DNA of 43,729 nucleotides from Elusimicrobiota bacterium. Its GTDB lineage: Bacteria > Elusimicrobiota > Endomicrobiia > Endomicrobiales > Endomicrobiaceae. The notes below the pieces were generated by a model. The model saw only the letters and a program-made list of their open reading frames with translations, was not told the DNA's origin and did no database searches. Made by a program: the position numbers and the translations under genes. Position 1 is the stretch's first letter. The number at the start of each line of letters is the position of its first letter. The DNA is taken from assembly GCA_031287735.1 (NCBI GenBank), contig JAITSO010000020.1, positions 1-43,729 of the forward strand, written 5' to 3'. Below, piece after piece: positions 6,742-43,729 of this stretch.

Positions 6742-6945
6742 TTATTTTAAAGATATCTTGCAACTGTAGTCACTAAAAATAATGTCAATTTTGTTCTCTC
6801 TAGCAAGCCAACCTAAAGCAAGATAAAGCATGGTATTCGATAATTCCAATGAAATTTTTATTTTAATAGAAGTGACCTGTCCGTGTTCAGACAGATATTT
6901 CCAAATTTCTCCAGCCGCAAACCCAATTTCTGATATTTCGCACAT
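6742..6945 (-). CDS. Small winged-helix protein, DUF2582 type
   Basis: This 67-residue protein has the DUF2582 winged helix-turn-helix pattern: GFAAGEIWKYLSEHG, then a helix with SIKIKISLELSNT, then ALGWLARENKI and a short C-terminal wing. The molecular role of the family is unknown; the fold suggests nucleic-acid or protein binding. It starts 2 bases after the accB stop, so it probably lies in one operon with accB and pnp. AccC, the usual partner after accB, is not here. Confidence 0.8.
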   Translation of the reverse strand: MCEISEIGFAAGEIWKYLSEHGQVTSIKIKISLELSNTMLYLALGWLARENKIDIIFSDYSCKISLK

Positions 6946-10969: not shown

Positions 10970-13572
10970 TTTGAATTGTTCTTTTCTTCTATAAAAAATC
11001 TTCTGAGAAAATTTTTTCTAACTTCAAATTTATTTGGAGAAATGAGGGATATAAAGTCTTCTATAAAAGAATAATTGTATTGGTCTGGCAGAATAGCTAT
11101 ATATATGTCGCACCACAAAGGTTGGAATTCACTTTTAAATTTTCTCAGAAGATTATTATCGTAATTGAAATGTTCAGCAAACATAAAAGTTTTTGTTAAA
11201 GTTTCAAATATGGCATCTTTTGTGCTTCCATTTCCTTGTTGATTGCATGTAAAACCTAAATCAAAAAATTTGCAGTTTTTTTCTCTAGCGGCAAGAACAC
11301 TTTTAAAAATTAAGTAAGAAAAAATATCTTTCTCATGTCTTCTGTAACGCACAGCACAGCACATAGCTTCATAATTATATGCCGAGGTTAAAAAAGAGGC
11401 AAAAGCTATGATAATTCCATCTTTTTTGACTACTGCAAAATTAAAATGCTTCATATAAGAAGGATCATATTGGCTGGGAATAAAATCCATTTCAACGTAC
11501 CCAGTGTTTTGCTTCCAATCAGCATCGATATTGCTAAATAACGTGCTGTATTTGTCAAAATCACTTGGCGGCAAAATTTCATATTCAAACCCATCTTGTT
11601 CTAATTCTTTTTCAAGCAAAGAAAATTTGCGGATACTTCCCAAATCTTTATTAAAACTTTTCAAATTTATCTTAGCTTCTTGGCCTATTGTAAAAGCTTC
11701 TAAGTTTACATCGTTGTAAATTTGCAAATATTTTCTATCTACACCTAAAAAAAACGGTTTTGCAGAGGTTTTTTCAGCAAATTCTTTAAAACGCCATATA
11801 AGTTCTGGTTTTCTTTCAGGATTGCCGATTGGATCGCCCAAAGCAATAAGACTGTCTCCTGAACGGGCAAATGCTATAAAAGCGTCTTTGGTGTCACTTA
11901 CAATATATCTTTTATCTTTCAAAAGTGCCGAAAAAGCGTATGTGTATTTACATTTATAGATGATGGTTTTAATATCTTCTCTGGAAAATTTTACTTCGCG
12001 CGTTGTGATTTTCTTAAGAATCTGTTCTATTAACACTGCTAAAATAATAAATGCAAAATATAAAGCGGTTTTTAAAAAATTAGATGCTGGAACACTTAAA
12101 GGAATGTCAGATAAAAATTGACTGATATGTATCCAATAAAAAACGTCGTATCTGTTGATAAAAAAACCCACCCATAAAGATAAAGCGAAAACTCCACAAA
12201 CGGTGCTAAACCACCACATATTTAAAGAGACTGCAAAAATAGATTTTTCTCTATAAAAATATTTTTTTGACAAAATGAATAAGACAAACAGGAAAGCAAA
12301 TAAAATAAAAATTAAAATGTTAAAACTGTAATTAAACGTTACAATTATTGAAAAAGTCATTAAAAAAAGTGCTGCACTGCGAGCAGATTTTACTCTAAAT
12401 TGCAATGCTTTTGAGATAAAAAGCAATGCGATGGCTGAGGCGCTTAACAGAAAACGTGGAAAATCAAAAACCCAAGCCCAAGGCACGAAGTGAAAAGTTT
12501 TTTGCAATAAGTTTGATTGCGAAAGCGTTGATGGCGAAATGCTATAAAACATTAAAACTGTTCCATAAATAAAAGAGAGAATTGTGATAAATTGAACAGA
12601 CAAGGCAGACAATGTTTTGCCAAAAACTTTGACGGACGTTTTGGTCTTTTTTATAAATTGGCTTATCTCAAAAGCACATAAAAGCAAAAGAGCTATTGAA
12701 AGCGGGAAAAAATAAAAAATTGCTCTATATGCCAAAAGTCCACCAATAACAGCCGGATTGCTTGCAGATGATGGAAGCAGCAAAGCGATTGTTGTTTCAA
12801 AAACTCCCATCCCGCCTGGGACTTGGCTTATAATAGCTAAAAGTTGAGCTGCTAAAAATACTTTTAAAAGCATTAAATATGTAAATTCTCCAGATGGCAT
12901 AAGAATATATAAAATTACTGAAGCTATGAGCCAATCACTTACAGATAAGAAAATTTGCCAAAAAGCGATTTGTAAATTTGGAAATGAAAAGGTTTTATTA
13001 AACAAATTTATTTTTTTGAAATGTAAAGAACATAAAATTAGGTATACGGCTAAAATTAAAATAAAAAATATTCCTATAGCTTTTGTTGAAAAGTTAAAAT
13101 TTAAAACTCCATCTAATTGTGCTGGCGAAAAAGTAAAAACAAAACTACCAATAACCAAAAGACCAAGCCAAATTGTAGCAGACGAAAAAAACAAAACCTT
13201 TGTGACATCAAGCATAGAAATATTATGTATAGAATAAAGTCTGTACCTTATAGAACCGCCAAAAAGCATAGAATATCCGGTATTATTGCCTAAAGCATTA
13301 CTTATAAAACAAGAAAGCAAAATATCTGAAAACTTCATTGTGTTTTTTTGCCCAACATATCTAAATGCTACAACATCATAGCAACCTAGTAAAAAATAAT
13401 AAAAAAGTGCTAAAAATAGAGCTGCATAAATTTTAATTGAAGCTATTGACGAGAAGGCGTTTGCTATATCTTTATAATTTAAATTTTTTAATTGATTGTG
13501 AAGCAAGATAATTGCTATAACAAAAATTAGAAGGCCTAAAGGTGCTATGATAAATTTTAGATAACGTTTCAT
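10966..13572 (-). CDS. MprF-like phosphatidylglycerol lysyltransferase/flippase
   Basis: Members of this family add an amino acid to phosphatidylglycerol and flip the product. The first about 520 residues are hydrophobic, with more than ten likely membrane segments, and carry the flippase-type motif VPGGMGVFETTIALLLP. The C-terminal about 330 residues form a cytoplasmic GNAT-like DUF2156 domain (ALGDPIGNPE, FFLGVDRKYL, DPSYMKHFNFAVV, FFDLGFTCN). Total length (868) matches bifunctional MprF. The acceptor-side motifs differ from classical MprF: where YSVDLMR and LGMAPL are usual, this has YEAMCCAVRYR and LGFTCNQ. The amino acid and lipid used are therefore uncertain. It lies directly upstream of tilS. 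Confidence 0.85.
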   Translation of the reverse strand: MKRYLKFIIAPLGLLIFVIAIILLHNQLKNLNYKDIANAFSSIASIKIYAALFLALFYYFLLGCYDVVAFRYVGQKNTMKFSDILLSCFISNALGNNTGYSMLFGGSIRYRLYSIHNISMLDVTKVLFFSSATIWLGLLVIGSFVFTFSPAQLDGVLNFNFSTKAIGIFFILILAVYLILCSLHFKKINLFNKTFSFPNLQIAFWQIFLSVSDWLIASVILYILMPSGEFTYLMLLKVFLAAQLLAIISQVPGGMGVFETTIALLLPSSASNPAVIGGLLAYRAIFYFFPLSIALLLLCAFEISQFIKKTKTSVKVFGKTLSALSVQFITILSFIYGTVLMFYSISPSTLSQSNLLQKTFHFVPWAWVFDFPRFLLSASAIALLFISKALQFRVKSARSAALFLMTFSIIVTFNYSFNILIFILFAFLFVLFILSKKYFYREKSIFAVSLNMWWFSTVCGVFALSLWVGFFINRYDVFYWIHISQFLSDIPLSVPASNFLKTALYFAFIILAVLIEQILKKITTREVKFSREDIKTIIYKCKYTYAFSALLKDKRYIVSDTKDAFIAFARSGDSLIALGDPIGNPERKPELIWRFKEFAEKTSAKPFFLGVDRKYLQIYNDVNLEAFTIGQEAKINLKSFNKDLGSIRKFSLLEKELEQDGFEYEILPPSDFDKYSTLFSNIDADWKQNTGYVEMDFIPSQYDPSYMKHFNFAVVKKDGIIIAFASFLTSAYNYEAMCCAVRYRRHEKDIFSYLIFKSVLAAREKNCKFFDLGFTCNQQGNGSTKDAIFETLTKTFMFAEHFNYDNNLLRKFKSEFQPLWCDIYIAILPDQYNYSFIEDFISLISPNKFEVRKNFLRRFFIEEKNNSK

Positions 13573-16715: not shown

Positions 16716-18698
16716 CTAAAAGCTTTTAGCATTGGATAGATTGTATTTATCCCACACAGTGTTATACTCAAAAGCTTTTGTAGTGTTATGCAATAGCATT
16801 GTTATTGTCATGGGACCTACGCCGCCGGGAACAGGTGTAATATCTATATTCATGTCTTTTACTCCGTCAAAATCTACATCTCCGCAAAGCCCGTTTTCAG
16901 TTCTATTTATTCCTACGTCTATAACGCAGGCACCGTTTTTGATGAAATCTTTAGTTATAAATTTAGGTTTTCCTAAAGCTGCTACTAAAATATCTGCAGA
17001 TTTGCAGATACTTTGCAGATTTTTTGTTTTTGAGTGTGCTGTAATAACCGTTGCATTATGTTTAAGCAAAAGCGTTGCAAGAGGTTTTCCCACAAGGTTT
17101 GATCTTCCAACAACTACTGCAGTTTTTCCTTCTATTTCTATCTTTGATTCTTTCAAAAGTTCTATCACACCGGCTGGTGTGCATGGAAGTGGCAAGTATG
17201 GGTTCCTATATTCACCGGTATTTAAAAATCCAGCATTAAGAGGATGTAGACCGTCTGCGTCTTTTGAAGGATCTATTGCTTTTATGCATCTTAGCGTATA
17301 GCTATTTAGCTCAAAGATATTGTCAGGCAATGGTAATTGAAGTAAAATTGCGTTAACTTCTTTATTTTCATTTAGTTTTTTTATCAATGAAATAATATCA
17401 TCTGGAGAAGAAGCTTCTGGCAGATCATAATGAAAAGATTTAATACCACAATCTTGGCAGGCTTTAATTTTTGCTTTTACATACACTTGGCTTGCAGGAT
17501 CGCTTCCTACTAAAATGGTTGCAAGTCCTGGCGCCTCGTTCTTAGCTGAAGCTATAACAGCTGCTTTCAGAGCTTCCAGAGCTTTTGGAGTTTCAATAGC
17601 TGATTTCATAGCTTCCAACGACTTCAGAGATTTCGTGCTTTCGATAGCTAATTTCAGAAATTTCAGATTTTTATCAACATCAAAACTAGTAGGTTCACAT
17701 CCGGCACTTGTTTCCTGATGGCGTGCGGCTTTAGTAACTGATATCAGAAAATCTAGCTTCCCAAGAGCTGATTTTATAGATTTCAGAGTTTCAATAGCTG
17801 GGTTCATCTCTGAAATTACCGGAGTAGAGGAGTATACATTCAGAAATTTCGCATATTCAATAGCTACATTCAGAAATTTCGGGACGGAGTCCTCCAGGGA
17901 GCTAGCATAAATTAGAGCCTCCATAATTCCACTAACTAAATGTAGAGATTCCGGAAATGTAGCAGCTAAATTCAGAGCTTCCATAACTTTAATAGTTGAT
18001 TTCAGATATTCTGTAGTTACATCGACCATACCTGATGATACCCAAGGTAGGCAATCTGCAACCGTTGCTTTCAGAGCTTCCAGAGCTTTTGGAGTTTCAA
18101 TAGCTGCTTTCATGGCTACCAACGACTTCAGAGATTTCGTGCTTTCGATAGCTAATTTCAGAAATTTCAGATTTTTATCAACATCAGCTAATTTCAGAAA
18201 TTTCAGATTTTTATCAACATCACTAGTAGGTTCACATCCGGCACTTATTTCCTGAGGTTTCGCAAAATTATTAGCTAATGTTAGAAATTCTAGTTTTTCA
18301 ATAGTTGATTTCATGCCTTCCAGAGCTTCAATGGCTGGTCCCAGTAATTCTGGAGCTTCAACAGTTGGGTACACCGATTCCGTAGTTATCGGAATTATAG
18401 TACAAGATTTCACATATTTAATAGTTAAATTCAGAAATTTCAGTAATTCAGTATTTGAATCGTCCATAGCATACTGCAGAGCTTCCACAACTACACCAGC
18501 TACATTCAGAGATTCCGGAAATGTAGCAGCTAAATTCAGATCTTCCAGGATTTTAATAGTTGATTTCAGAGATTCTGTAGTTACTTTTTCTACGCTTGAA
18601 TATACACTTACTGTAATCATTGTTTTCAGAGACTCAATGCGTTTACTTATTGCTTTTCGCTTTTCATCTGAAATTCTTTTTCCATCTATTATTCTCAT
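16716..18698 (-). CDS. folD: FolD, interrupted by a 358-residue in-frame repeat insertion
   Basis: FolD (methylene-THF dehydrogenase/cyclohydrolase) interconverts methylene-, methenyl- and formyl-tetrahydrofolate. Residues 1-25 (MRIIDGKRISDEKRK...) match the FolD N-terminal strand and helix. Residues 384-660 match the rest: SDPASQVYVKAKIKAC with catalytic Tyr and Lys, QLPLP, KDADGLHP, GRSNLVGKP for NADP, and PVPGGVGPMT. Joining 25 to 384 restores the normal helix length. All usual catalytic motifs are intact. Residues 26-383 are foreign: two diverged repeats of 170-190 residues rich in Lys, Leu, Ala, Ser and Glu, predicted helical. No intein-type Cys or His-Asn ends are seen. The frame has no stop. 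The gene follows gcvPB by 26 bases, a fitting one-carbon context. Whether the insert is retained in the mature enzyme is unknown. Confidence 0.93.
   Translation of the reverse strand: MRIIDGKRISDEKRKAISKRIESLKTMITVSVYSSVEKVTTESLKSTIKILEDLNLAATFPESLNVAGVVVEALQYAMDDSNTELLKFLNLTIKYVKSCTIIPITTESVYPTVEAPELLGPAIEALEGMKSTIEKLEFLTLANNFAKPQEISAGCEPTSDVDKNLKFLKLADVDKNLKFLKLAIESTKSLKSLVAMKAAIETPKALEALKATVADCLPWVSSGMVDVTTEYLKSTIKVMEALNLAATFPESLHLVSGIMEALIYASSLEDSVPKFLNVAIEYAKFLNVYSSTPVISEMNPAIETLKSIKSALGKLDFLISVTKAARHQETSAGCEPTSFDVDKNLKFLKLAIESTKSLKSLEAMKSAIETPKALEALKAAVIASAKNEAPGLATILVGSDPASQVYVKAKIKACQDCGIKSFHYDLPEASSPDDIISLIKKLNENKEVNAILLQLPLPDNIFELNSYTLRCIKAIDPSKDADGLHPLNAGFLNTGEYRNPYLPLPCTPAGVIELLKESKIEIEGKTAVVVGRSNLVGKPLATLLLKHNATVITAHSKTKNLQSICKSADILVAALGKPKFITKDFIKNGACVIDVGINRTENGLCGDVDFDGVKDMNIDITPVPGGVGPMTITMLLHNTTKAFEYNTVWDKYNLSNAKSF
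17563..17681 (-). repeat. Near-identical 119-bp copy (unit B) in folD insert
   Basis: This 119-bp stretch matches 18067-18185 at 116 positions by direct comparison (mismatches A/C, A/G and T/A). It encodes the LKLAIESTKSLKSL to IETPKALEALKA part. The flanking parts of the units are much more diverged. Confidence 0.9.
18067..18185 (-). repeat. Near-identical 119-bp copy (unit A) in folD insert
   Basis: Counterpart of 17563-17681, offset by 504 bases (168 codons). It is followed at once by an extra 36-bp unit that unit B lacks. Confidence 0.9.
18150..18221 (-). repeat. Perfect 36-bp tandem duplication in folD insert
   Basis: Two identical 36-base units (18150-18185 and 18186-18221) encode DVDKNLKFLKLA twice in a row. 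The length is a multiple of three, so the frame is kept. Being perfect, it is probably the most recent change in the insert. Confidence 0.95.
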
Positions 18699-18724: not shown

Positions 18725-20158
18725 TTATTGCCATTTTAAAATAGGCTTTCTTGCAGCTGTTACTTCATCTAACCTTTTAACCGGAGTATTTTGAGGAGCA
18801 TTTTTAACTATTTGAGGGCATTTTTCAGATTCTTCAAATATAATTTTAATAAGAGTATCTACAAATTTATCAAGCGTTTCTTTTGACTCTGTTTCTGTTG
18901 GTTCTATCATCATAGCTTCTGCTACTATTAGAGGAAAATATATTGTTGGTGCATAATAACCATAATCTAAAAGTCTTTTGGCTACGTCTAAAGTTCTAAT
19001 ATTGTTTTTTAAAACAGATTTTGGTGCTAAAACAAATTCATGCATGCATCTGTTTCCTGCCGGAACTTCTATTTTTTCTCTAATACGTGCAAGCATGTAA
19101 TTTGCATTTAAAACTGCCTGCTGTGAAGCATTTTTCAAACCTTCGCTGCCAAGTGCTTTTATGTAGACATAAGCTTTAAGTAATACTGGAAAATTGCCTA
19201 AAAATGCTTTTAATTTGCCGATGCTTTTGGGTTTTTTATAATCTAAAGTAAAATTGTTTTTACTAGTTTTTTTAATCCTTGGTACCGGCAAAAAAGGTTC
19301 TAAAAATGATTTAACACCAACCGGTCCAGAACCAGGTCCACCGCCGCCGTGAGGCGTTGCGAAAGTTTTATGTAAATTAAGATGCATAACATCAAAACCC
19401 ATGTCGCCAGGGCGTACAATACCCATAACAGCATTTAAATTTGCTCCGTCATAATATAAAAGTGAACCATTACTGTGAACAACTTTTGAAATTTCTAAAA
19501 TTTGTTTTTCAAAAATTCCCAAAGTGTTTGGAACTGTAAGCATTATTGCTGCAACATCTGAAGTTAAAAGACTTTTCAATTTATCAATAGAAATATTGCC
19601 GTCTTTTTCAGACGGTAAATTTATAACTTCAAAACCGGCTAAAGAAGCAGAAGCTGGGTTTGTGCCATGTGCCAAATCAGGAATTATGATTTTTTTTCTT
19701 TTTTGCTTTATATATTTAAAATGTTGGCTGATTATTAAAAGCCCTGCAAATTCTCCTTGTGCACCAGCTGCTGGTTGAAGAGAAAAAGCATCCATTCCGG
19801 TTATTTCGCATAAGTCTTTTTCAAGCTCAAACATTATTTCTAAAGAACCTTGGATGGTTTTTTCATCTTGAAGTGGATGAATTTTTGTGAAATTTTTTAG
19901 CTTTGCAATACGTTCGCTAATTAAAGGATTGTATTTCATTGTGCAAGATCCTAAAGGATAAAAAGTGGTTGAAAGAGCATAGTTTTTGCGCGAAAGGTTT
20001 GTGAAATGTCTTAATAAATCTATTTCTGAAATATTGGGCAAGTCCAATTCTGATTTTCTTTTAAGATTTTGAGGAATTTCACAATCAATCGGCACATCAC
20101 AGTCTATGTCGTAAGCAGCAAGACATTCTGAGGATATTTCATTTAATAATTTTTCCAT
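18725..20158 (-). CDS. gcvPB: Glycine dehydrogenase (decarboxylating) subunit 2
   Basis: This is the PLP-carrying half of the glycine cleavage P-protein in its two-subunit form. The PLP lysine lies in HLNLHKTFATPHGGGGPGSG. Other signs are FYPLGSCTMKYNP near the N-terminus, LQPAAGAQGEFAGL, and PTETESKETLDKF near the end. At 477 residues it is complete. The partner gcvPA, gcvH and gcvT are not in the window; the upstream side is repeat block 2. AGGAAA precedes the ATG. It probably shares a transcript with folD. Confidence 0.95.
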   Translation of the reverse strand: MEKLLNEISSECLAAYDIDCDVPIDCEIPQNLKRKSELDLPNISEIDLLRHFTNLSRKNYALSTTFYPLGSCTMKYNPLISERIAKLKNFTKIHPLQDEKTIQGSLEIMFELEKDLCEITGMDAFSLQPAAGAQGEFAGLLIISQHFKYIKQKRKKIIIPDLAHGTNPASASLAGFEVINLPSEKDGNISIDKLKSLLTSDVAAIMLTVPNTLGIFEKQILEISKVVHSNGSLLYYDGANLNAVMGIVRPGDMGFDVMHLNLHKTFATPHGGGGPGSGPVGVKSFLEPFLPVPRIKKTSKNNFTLDYKKPKSIGKLKAFLGNFPVLLKAYVYIKALGSEGLKNASQQAVLNANYMLARIREKIEVPAGNRCMHEFVLAPKSVLKNNIRTLDVAKRLLDYGYYAPTIYFPLIVAEAMMIEPTETESKETLDKFVDTLIKIIFEESEKCPQIVKNAPQNTPVKRLDEVTAARKPILKWQ

Positions 20159-20395
20159 TTTATTTCCTATTGAATTTATGTGCGATCTACTTAAACTGCG
20201 GTTTTGTTAAATCATGAAAACATTGCATTCGCTTTTTAAAGTAAATACATTTTCCCTTTGAATTCCTAAAAAAAGTGTGAATTTTAAGATTTTAGCTCGA
20301 CTAATTCCCGCTTTCACCAAACAGGTGCTTTGTCTGAAATTTCCGCTTTCACGCATCGGACGGTCGCTTTTGCAGTTATTGCCCCAGCCGTTGCT

Positions 20396-20445
20396 TTTAA
20401 TTCCCATTTTTCAAAGATGAAGCTTTGCCTTTAATTCCACCTTTT
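20396..20445. repeat. 50-bp direct repeat, copy 1 of block 2
   Basis: It begins TTTAATTCCCATTTTTCAAA, contains the small inverted repeat CAAAG, ATGAAG, CTTTG, and ends TTTAATTCCACCTTTT. The copy at 20704-20753 differs at about one base in the shared part. Confidence 0.85.
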
Positions 20446-20703
20446 CAAAGGGTCAGCACTTTTAAAAGTGCGGGGTTTTAAAACCTAAAATTTTTCAGGT
20501 CAAATCTATCTGTCAAGAAACCCGGCAAAATAATGAGAGCCGCTAAAGCTATAGGTTATAAAACCCCCGGCCGCCGTTGGCGACCACCCCCTTTAAAAAA
20601 GTGGGAATAACTGCAAAAGCACCGACCCCCTGCAAGTAAAGGTGGAATTAAAGCGGAGCCCCTTTTTATAGCTATTCGCACTTTATTAAAGAAAGCCGTG
20701 GAC

Positions 20704-20753
20704 TTTAATTCCCATTTTTCAAAGATGAAGCTTTGTCTTTAATTCCACCTTTT
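20704..20753. repeat. 50-bp direct repeat, copy 2 of block 2
   Basis: Near-identical to 20396-20445, 308 bases further on in the same orientation. Here it is followed by TTTAAAGTGGGAATAACT, a module also seen at 20593-20610. Confidence 0.85.
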
Positions 20754-20981
20754 TTAAAGTGGGAATAACTACAAAAACGACTAGACCCTTTAAAAAAGAG
20801 GAAATTAAAACTAGACCTAATATTTTTAGTAAAAACGCCGACGTTTTTCATCGGAAAATCAAAACCCTTCGCCGCTATTGTAGACAACTTATTAGAACCA
20901 AATTCTCTACGCGTGTGATAGGGTTTCGTATCATTGCTACTAATCCGTTCAAATACCTGCGGCCGGCGCGAGTCTTTTTAT

Positions 20982-22247
20982 CTACTTCTCATAAATTTTA
21001 TCTTTTCTTACCAATGAATGTTTTAACGCTTCATCAAAAGAAATATCATTTTCTATAGCAAAATTTGCAATATCGCGATATTCAGCTTTAGATTTTTCAA
21101 CATTATAACCCTTGGCGGTTTTTATCTTAACATTGTTTTTGCCAGTGCTAAATTGCCTTTCTAAAATGTACCTGCTGCAAATTGTTTTTCTAACTCCAAA
21201 AGTTGTGGTGTATTTTAAAATCAATTCAGCAAAAAAATTTGACCTGTCTACCTCGCACAAGCAGGTAAGTAAAAAAGCAGGTCGGTTTTGCTTCATAAAA
21301 ATTGGAATTGTGAAAACATCAAGAGCACCTCGCTTAAGCAAGACATCGCAGGCAAAACTTAAAGCTTCGCCGGTGATGTCATCTAAATTGCATTCTAACT
21401 TTGCTATCTCATCGTTTTCATTACCAAAATTTTGCACTTGGGTTTGTCCTAAAAAAGCTCTCAGACAATTAGTGTTTTCAAAATTTTTTTTGCCCATCCC
21501 ATAACCTATTTTTTTGATTTTCATCGCAGGCATTTGCAAAAACTCATTTGCAAAGTGTTTTAAGAGAGCAGCACCTGTTGGAGTGCATAATTCCGATAAA
21601 ATTCCAGAAGAAAAAATTGGAATATCTTTCAATATATTTGCAGTTGCAGGAGCTGGAACAGGGACAATTCCATGCAGACATTTTATACTTCCACTTCCAG
21701 TATTTATAGGTGAAACTATTATTTTATCAGGTTTTAAAAAATCTAAAAGCACGCAAAAACTGACAATATCTGCAATTGCGTCCATATTTCCAACTTCATG
21801 GAAATGAATTTGCTCAATAGTTTTTCCATGCACTTGGCTTTCGGCGTCTGCAATAATTTTATAAATCGCAAAAACATTGGATTTTATATTGTCAGATATT
21901 TTAAGAGAAGATATTATATTTTCAATTTTGTTGATATTTGCGTGTTGATGAGGTTGGGAATGTGAATTATTATCATGTTTATGATGGTGTTGATGTTGTG
22001 CGTGTTTGTCATTACTGTGTTCATCTAAAATGGATTCTTGCTTTCCGTCAATAAGAACCTTCATCTGAAATCCACTAACTGCCCATTTAACGGCTTTGCA
22101 AAATGAAATTTCTGTATTTTCGAGACCTGCCAAGTTTATATTTTCTAAAAATTTACTTTTATCGCTGTCGTCAAGCAAATCATATAAAGCAGCGTTGAGC
22201 ATATCGCCTGCTGCTCCCATAGAACATTCTAAATAGAGAATTTTCAT
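20982..22247 (-). CDS. larC: LarC, nickel insertion into the pincer cofactor
   Basis: LarC is the CTP-dependent nickel insertase that finishes the nickel-pincer nucleotide cofactor of lactate racemase-type enzymes. The N-terminus MKILYLECSMGAAGDMLNAA and the motifs IHFHEVGNMDAIADIV, GSGSIKCLHGIVPVPAP and ELCTPTGAALL are typical of the DUF111/LarC family. A His-rich run of about 30 residues around 79-107 could hold metal. At 421 residues it is a single continuous frame, unlike lactobacillar LarC, which is made by frameshifting. It overlaps larB by ATGA. Confidence 0.92.
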   Translation of the reverse strand: MKILYLECSMGAAGDMLNAALYDLLDDSDKSKFLENINLAGLENTEISFCKAVKWAVSGFQMKVLIDGKQESILDEHSNDKHAQHQHHHKHDNNSHSQPHQHANINKIENIISSLKISDNIKSNVFAIYKIIADAESQVHGKTIEQIHFHEVGNMDAIADIVSFCVLLDFLKPDKIIVSPINTGSGSIKCLHGIVPVPAPATANILKDIPIFSSGILSELCTPTGAALLKHFANEFLQMPAMKIKKIGYGMGKKNFENTNCLRAFLGQTQVQNFGNENDEIAKLECNLDDITGEALSFACDVLLKRGALDVFTIPIFMKQNRPAFLLTCLCEVDRSNFFAELILKYTTTFGVRKTICSRYILERQFSTGKNNVKIKTAKGYNVEKSKAEYRDIANFAIENDISFDEALKHSLVRKDKIYEK

Positions 22248-23017
22248 TTTGCACTTTCCATTTTGTTTATACAGTTTGCGATAAAACCCGCGCCAAAACC
22301 GTTATCTATATTTACTACAGAAACGCAATTTGCACAAGAATTTAACATTGAAAGCAAAGCCGAAAGACCTTTAAAATTTGCACCGTAACCTACACTTGTA
22401 GGAACAGCTATAACAGGACAAGGCGACAAACCGCCGACCACGCTTGCAAGTGCACCTTCCATTCCGGCAACTGCAATGATAGCACGTGCTTTTGAAATGA
22501 TTTCAACAGAAGCTAAAATTCTATGAATTCCTGCAACACCTACATCATAAAGACGTTCTATTTTGCTTCCTAAAGTTTCAGCAGTAATTGCAGCTTCTTC
22601 GCATACTGGCATATCACTTGTGCCGCCACTTACTATAACAACGCAGCCTGTTGTTTGTCGTTTTAAATTTTTGTTTACCACAGCTATTTTTGCTGTTGGG
22701 AAAAACGTCAAAGGAATTTTCTTAGAAAGCAAAAAATCTGAAGTTTGCTGCTCTATTCTGGTAATCAAGATGTCTTTTAAGCTTTTTTCAAGCATATCTG
22801 ACACAATTCCAAAAATTTGTTCATTGCTTTTTCCCTGACCATAAATAACTTCATTAGTGGATTGACGCGAGCTTCTGTGATAATCAATATTTGCAAAGCC
22901 TAAATTTTTGAAAGGTTCAATATGTAAACCTAATAAAGCGTCCTCAGGAGAAATTTTGCCATTTTGGACGCTTTTCAATAAGTTTAAAATTTCTTTTTTA
23001 TTATTTGCTTTTTTCAT
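22244..23017 (-). CDS. larB: LarB, pyridinium-3,5-biscarboxylic acid mononucleotide synthase
   Basis: LarB carboxylates nicotinic acid adenine dinucleotide in the first step of nickel-pincer cofactor synthesis. The C-terminal PurE-like domain is clear: IVSGGTSDMPVCEEAAITAE, YDVGVAGIHRIL, AVAGMEGALASVVGGL and VPTSVGYGANF. The N-terminal segment NIDYHRSSRQSTNEVIYG is also typical. At 257 residues it is full length. No Shine-Dalgarno is seen; it starts 9 bases after the upstream gene and is probably translationally coupled. It sits with larC and a nickel/cobalt-type permease. Confidence 0.92.
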   Translation of the reverse strand: MKKANNKKEILNLLKSVQNGKISPEDALLGLHIEPFKNLGFANIDYHRSSRQSTNEVIYGQGKSNEQIFGIVSDMLEKSLKDILITRIEQQTSDFLLSKKIPLTFFPTAKIAVVNKNLKRQTTGCVVIVSGGTSDMPVCEEAAITAETLGSKIERLYDVGVAGIHRILASVEIISKARAIIAVAGMEGALASVVGGLSPCPVIAVPTSVGYGANFKGLSALLSMLNSCANCVSVVNIDNGFGAGFIANCINKMESAK

Positions 23018-43380: not shown

Positions 43381-43729
43381 TGTAACAAAGTTTTGTCCAA
43401 TGATGAATTGAAGCCGAGCAGTGTAATCAGTTTTAAAAAGTTTTTAAAGAGGTTTTAAAACCTCCACTTCAAATAGGTGGTAGCAATCCTTTAATTCCCA
43501 CTTTTCCTTTCGGGGGTGATCGACTTTAGCCGTTATTCCACCTTTCCTTTCAGGGTGACGACTTTAGCTGTTATTCCCCCTTTTTTAAAGGGGGTGGTCG
43601 CTGAAAGCGACCGGGGGTTTTAAAACCTAAAATTTTAAGTGTAAATAAAAATTTTTACCTAAACGTTAAATCTTTGTCTTTTAAAACCCCCCTGCTAACG
43701 CAGACCCCCTTTAAAAAAGGTGGAATTAA
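43381..43729. repeat. Intergenic repeat block 3, running off the window end
   Basis: After cls comes GAGGTTTTAAAACCTC (43450-43465), then three related modules starting at 43489, 43524 and 43562 (CTTTAATTCCC, CTTTAGCCGTTATTCC, CTTTAGCTGTTATTCC) with a spacing of 35 and 38 bases. A right-end module follows (TTTTTTAAAGGGGGTGG, stem-loop 43596-43612, GGGGGTTTTAAAACC). After about 45 bases a new left end begins at 43678 (TTTTAAAACCCCCC, stem-loop 43692-43703, ACCCCCTTT, A-run, GGTGGAATTAA) and is cut off by the window end. Confidence 0.85.

Follow-up and report, generated by a model that had tools for sequence, protein, structure and literature searches.

The folD gene of this Elusimicrobiota genome is interrupted in frame by a segment of 358 codons, which is probably a large intragenic minisatellite-type expansion that grew from FolD's own codons, is tolerated by the enzyme, and is drifting neutrally. 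Self-seeded tandem expansion of this kind was not among the readings offered in the initial annotation of the sequence, but it fits the data best.

Position and context of the folD insert

The window, meaning the whole stretch of 43,729 nucleotides that was analyzed, carries folD as a single long, stop-free ORF of 660 amino acids (16716 to 18698, minus strand). The ORF matched both FolD domains in Pfam, PF00763 (E 2.7e-29), for which the match began only at profile position 12, and PF02882 (E 2.2e-64). The invariant residues Y406, K410, Q454, and D480 and the GGVGP motif are kept, and the top PDB matches of the predicted structure were solved FolD structures. Alignment to relatives and AlphaFold2 assigned residues 1 to 25, containing the first strand and helix alpha-1, to the native N terminus (18624 to 18698, minus strand). 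Residues 384 to 660, with the substrate- and NAD(P)-binding domains and the catalytic motifs (16719 to 17549, minus strand), were assigned as native by Pfam, alignment, the invariant residues, AlphaFold2, and the PDB structure matches. Together, residues 1 to 25 and about 384 to 660 amount to an entire FolD, catalytic motifs included. Within this core, 5 extra residues (IFELN) were also observed at about residues 461 to 465 (window positions about 17304 to 17318, minus strand), which the relatives lack.

The insert, residues 26 to 383 (17550 to 18623, minus strand), was delimited by frame, alignment, and periodicity. It consists of degenerate in-frame repeats of 30 nt (10 codons), is predicted to be helical, and is rich in Leu, Ala, Lys, Ser, and Glu, with a GC content of 38 to 40%, somewhat higher than its surroundings. 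One frame is open across all 358 codons; of the other five, four contain 27 to 53 stops and one contains 3. The insert lies after helix alpha-1 and before the strand starting PGLATILVG, and its 3' boundary is uncertain by about 5 to 8 residues because FolD loops vary there.

FolDs of the family are without these extra residues, about 355 in number; aligned relatives matched residues 1 to 25 and 379 to 645 with no long gap. Of the roughly 155 best matches listed in a phylum-wide search, only the one in this genome had an interrupted N-terminal domain. Nearly all of these began at position 1 or 2 of the FolD N-terminal profile and spanned it whole; the only exceptions were this genome (11 to 115) and one gene cut by a contig end. 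Since the listed matches and the aligned relatives are uninterrupted, the insertion is a genuine feature of the assembly and unique to this lineage, here represented by a single genome of its genus. The initial annotation had described a FolD with an in-frame insert of 358 residues and had proposed the alignment of relatives; the open frame, the Pfam domains, the invariant residues, and the uninterrupted family members all bear that description out.

Long internal insertions were surveyed in about 303 kb of the genome (about a fifth) against 400 kb of a relative, giving 94 matched ORFs. No other ORF had a comparable long internal extra segment, and most other length differences came from partial or wrong-frame ORFs. 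A genome-wide habit of long insertions was therefore rejected, folD being the sole case in the sample of about 303 kb. Other proteins with internal repeats in the sample, namely, a 554-amino-acid protein with S1-like repeats and an autotransporter-like protein of 1603 amino acids, looked ordinary by eye. Separately, tandem repeats of 38 to 41 nt with related sequences (TTCCCACTTTTCTTTTAGGGGGTG-like) were observed at window positions 43498 to 43600, at 6768 to 6873 of locus L048, and at 12151 to 12265 of locus L052, possibly forming a dispersed repeat family across these three genome loci. Locus L048 also carries a 93-amino-acid ORF (11801 to 12079, minus strand) in which a 120-nt unit occurs twice, with 90% identity between the copies (KISRSTVTGKFVTNDYAKNHPKTTVRETIKEG); this ORF may encode a small protein that has been duplicated in tandem.

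The FolD N-terminal domain was found in one gene only in the genome, this folD, and formate-tetrahydrofolate ligase was looked for in the genome and not found. When that ligase is lacking, established folate metabolism leads one to expect that methylene-tetrahydrofolate is converted to formyl-tetrahydrofolate through FolD. As the sole copy on this expected route, with no ligase found, folD is probably needed by the cell, and we infer that the full-length, insert-bearing protein is made and still active. The gene gcvPB (glycine dehydrogenase subunit 2; 18725 to 20158, minus strand) lies 26 nt upstream on the same strand, an arrangement that fits a working glycine-cleavage context. Upstream of the gcvPB-folD pair, the nickel-pincer cofactor pathway genes larC and larB occupy window positions 20982 to 23017; larC is separated from gcvPB by about 820 nt (20159 to 20981), an interval that contains no coding-strand ORF of at least 100 amino acids.

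Repeat anatomy and a putative seed in the host gene

The insert is repetitive at two scales, a coarse duplication with a spacing of ~500 to 560 nt and a fine period of 30 nt. Its first half (18053 to 18605, minus strand) contains the blocks D5 (18467 to 18605), D6 (18208 to 18338), and D4 (18053 to 18186), which recur in the second half (17549 to 18041, minus strand) at 17903 to 18041, 17671 to 17801, and 17549 to 17682, respectively. The copies of the 134-nt block lie 504 nt apart and share 94% identity, those of the 139-nt block lie 564 nt apart (80%), and those of the 131-nt block lie 537 nt apart (74%). All spacings are multiples of three, and the spread of identities needs several events or gene conversion. 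A perfect 36-nt tandem duplication (residues DVDKNLKFLKLA twice; 18150 to 18222, minus strand) is present in the first half only and is the youngest step of array growth. The two diverged units of 170 to 190 residues in the initial annotation correspond well to these recurring blocks; the finer periodicity was absent from it.

At the finer scale, the lag-30 self-match of the insert was 0.426, versus 0.296 in codon shuffles (z 9.4). The same period was detected within each half (z 6.7 and 6.1), and the same test found none in the FolD core. The units center on GAA-nCT-CTG-AAA, reading GAA-nCT-CTG-AAA-nnn-GCT-ATT and similar. With up to 3 mismatches, the 21-nt core pattern occurred 7 times in the window versus 0.04 expected; elsewhere in the genome a single match was found, with 3 mismatches, all other near-core matches being at the folD locus. 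Descent from the unit is not obvious for some stretches, such as residues 94 to 116 and 143 to 160. The copies run head to tail and the unit is divisible by three, as in coding minisatellites, and the insert contains only weak inverted repeats of 13 to 18 nt.

A putative seed for the array is found in the native codons 22 to 25, GAG TCT CTG AAA (18624 to 18635, minus strand), which are 11/12 identical to the repeat core GAATCTCTGAAA. This flank, GAGTCTCTGAAA, matches the core in register and aligns with the same helix end in FolD relatives. By comparison, 64 of 12,144 background 12-mers of the window (about 0.5%) matched the insert at 11 or more of 12 positions. Because codons 22 to 25 share the repeat core, growth from the host gene is indicated, as expected of a coding minisatellite; the match is short (12 nt), which weakens the case for a host-gene origin, and a foreign repeat could instead have landed beside a chance match to these codons. 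The codon usage of the insert bears on the same question: CTG accounts for 28 of its 47 Leu codons, versus 5.2% of those in 94 genes of the genome, an excess better explained by local copying of a seed than by a gene adapted to the genome.

Searches for an outside source gave no second copy of the insert in its own genome, and 341 genomes of the phylum were searched without finding a homologue. A class-level search returned one marginal match (E 0.0036, 27% identity), which was treated as chance. No homologue was found in viral contigs (IMG/VR) or phage collections, and no match in PDB, Pfam, NCBIfam, or PHROGs. Given this absence from the collections searched, the insert does not qualify as a dispersed mobile element, as an intein, or as a known domain taken from elsewhere. 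Among specific candidates, an intein was rejected because neither Pfam nor NCBIfam gave a match to a Hint or intein family, and a viral origin was rejected on the viral and phage searches. An intron or structured RNA was likewise rejected, with no Rfam match above the gathering score and two chance-level matches. MutS is present in the genome, so loss of mismatch repair through mutS cannot explain the expansion.

Drift in the insert and alternative readings

Between the halves of the insert, pN was 0.235 and pS was 0.242, a ratio of about 0.97 to 0.98 (95% bootstrap, 0.70 to 1.40) on 166 codons, a figure that could mask mixed positive and purifying selection. The ratio was near 1 in every block. 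Amino acid differences between the halves numbered 65, versus 64 expected with only stops forbidden, and the replacements were no more conserved in BLOSUM score or hydropathy than chance. No stop codon occurs in the insert, versus about 3.9 expected under unconstrained drift, a moderately significant deficit (P 0.016). The pattern in these codons suggests a passenger that must stay open and whose sequence is not conserved. The dS between the halves was about 0.29, versus at least 1.2 to the nearest relatives; since it is well below the latter, at least the large duplication is recent on the relatives' scale.

The full protein was modeled with AlphaFold2 together with 16 FolD relatives, a prediction that had been proposed with the initial annotation. 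Its outcome was divided: the FolD fold was confident, and the insert gave low-confidence helices. Residues 1 to 20 were placed within the FolD fold despite the insert (pLDDT 96 to 97), and the FolD part was mostly above pLDDT 90. The insert was predicted to be helical at a pLDDT of about 35 to 60, with the first helices extending alpha-1 and the last returning as a helix into the next strand. Folded alone, it reached a mean pLDDT of 37, too poor for a fold search, which leaves no ground for assigning it a fold.

It is rather unlikely, on this evidence, that a new helical domain is arising inside a housekeeping enzyme, self-made from repeats seeded by the host's helix, larger than many enzymes, and now either subject to constructive neutral evolution or in the early stages of being recruited as an assembly module. 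A new domain that already has a function, such as a scaffold, oligomerization, or partner-binding module tying FolD to the neighboring glycine cleavage enzymes, appears unlikely. The length and predicted helicity of the insert, its open frame, and the proximity of gcvPB would suit such a module, but the pN/pS of about 1 in every block, the physicochemical changes at chance level, the lack of a homologue or a confident fold, and the absence of the insert from relatives argue against it. Nothing supports a function for the insert, and the proposal in the initial annotation of a newly acquired scaffold domain fails on the same points: no known domain was matched, no confident fold was predicted, and the differences between halves equal the neutral expectation.

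An assembly artifact or chimera is improbable. The draft assembly consists of 60 contigs, and since misassembly readily affects arrays of similar repeats, the copy number of the array may be wrong; however, the frame is kept at both junctions and through all inner duplications, the insert is free of stops, the genome offers no other source for its sequence, and most copies differ by 6 to 26%, far beyond read error.

A selfish or mobile protein-coding element that inserted into folD, akin to the Rickettsia palindromic elements or to PARCELs, is quite improbable, although in-frame insertion at a surface turn and the repetitive composition would be in keeping with one. The insert occupies a single locus, with the one 3-mismatch core match elsewhere in the genome, and has no homologue in the class, phylum, viral, or phage searches; its inverted repeats are weak, it has no DUF285 match in Pfam, and the repeat core runs on into native FolD codons. 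The initial annotation had offered such an element as one reading and had suggested searching the unit against the same genome; that search returned no second copy, and the suggestion was not sustained. Finally, a decaying folD pseudogene inactivated by the expansion is highly improbable: the insert sequence is indeed unconstrained, but the FolD core has a pN/pS of 0.31 to 0.32 against five relatives (with synonymous sites near saturation), its invariant residues are kept without a stop or frameshift, and this sole folD has no formate-tetrahydrofolate ligase bypass that could be found.

Proposed growth and comparison with known systems

Under the preferred reading, a minisatellite-type expansion, growth would have started from FolD codons where helix alpha-1 ends, with a core such as GAG TCT CTG AAA. 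This core would have been copied in frame in 30-nt steps, presumably by replication slippage or unequal recombination, and the array would then have been enlarged by bigger duplications (about 500 to 560 nt) and lately by one of 36 nt. The encoded alpha-helical excursion is predicted to exit at the turn after helix alpha-1 and to re-enter as a helix, so that the enzyme domain can still fold. Because FolD is single copy, selection would hold the frame open without conserving the insert sequence. If expressed, the protein would show that a single-copy central enzyme can bear an insert that drifts neutrally and exceeds the enzyme domain itself in length. It would also provide a datable natural case in which a few codons of the host gave rise, in frame, to a long orphan segment, as well as a starting point from which the birth of domains de novo could be tested. 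A limited literature search found no paper on such an insert in FolD.

Outside the insert, all domains, motifs, and the fold are those of ordinary FolD, from which the protein differs in the roughly 355 residues added after helix alpha-1, ahead of the next strand. Rickettsia palindromic elements are palindromic, multicopy sequences of about 100 to 150 nt that lie in frame inside housekeeping genes. The FolD insert is likewise in frame and tolerated inside a housekeeping gene, but it is about 1.07 kb long, not palindromic, and confined to a single locus. In this the initial annotation was right: it had placed the insert at a tolerant surface site and had set aside both inteins and these elements, in agreement with the missing Hint match, the missing palindrome, and the single copy.

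PARCELs consist of amphipathic 25-residue repeats in tandem, encoded by dyad-symmetric DNA and found in many taxa, mostly in ORFs not recognizable as housekeeping genes (PMC2996958). Like PARCEL/DUF285 sequences, the FolD insert is made of tandem, helical, sequence-variable repeats in frame. It differs in its 10-codon units (a period of 10 residues), in the lack of dyad symmetry or strong inverted repeats, and in having no homologue.

The insert most resembles bacterial intragenic tandem repeats in its head-to-tail, in-frame units with a length that is a multiple of three, in its successive duplications of different age, and in its orphan sequence. Such repeats are usually found in surface or secreted proteins, whereas this array lies within a single-copy core metabolic enzyme, is highly degenerate, and at over 1 kb is larger than the enzyme domain. 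The closest kind is therefore the coding minisatellite, of which the size, degeneracy, and place in a core enzyme make this insert a striking variant.
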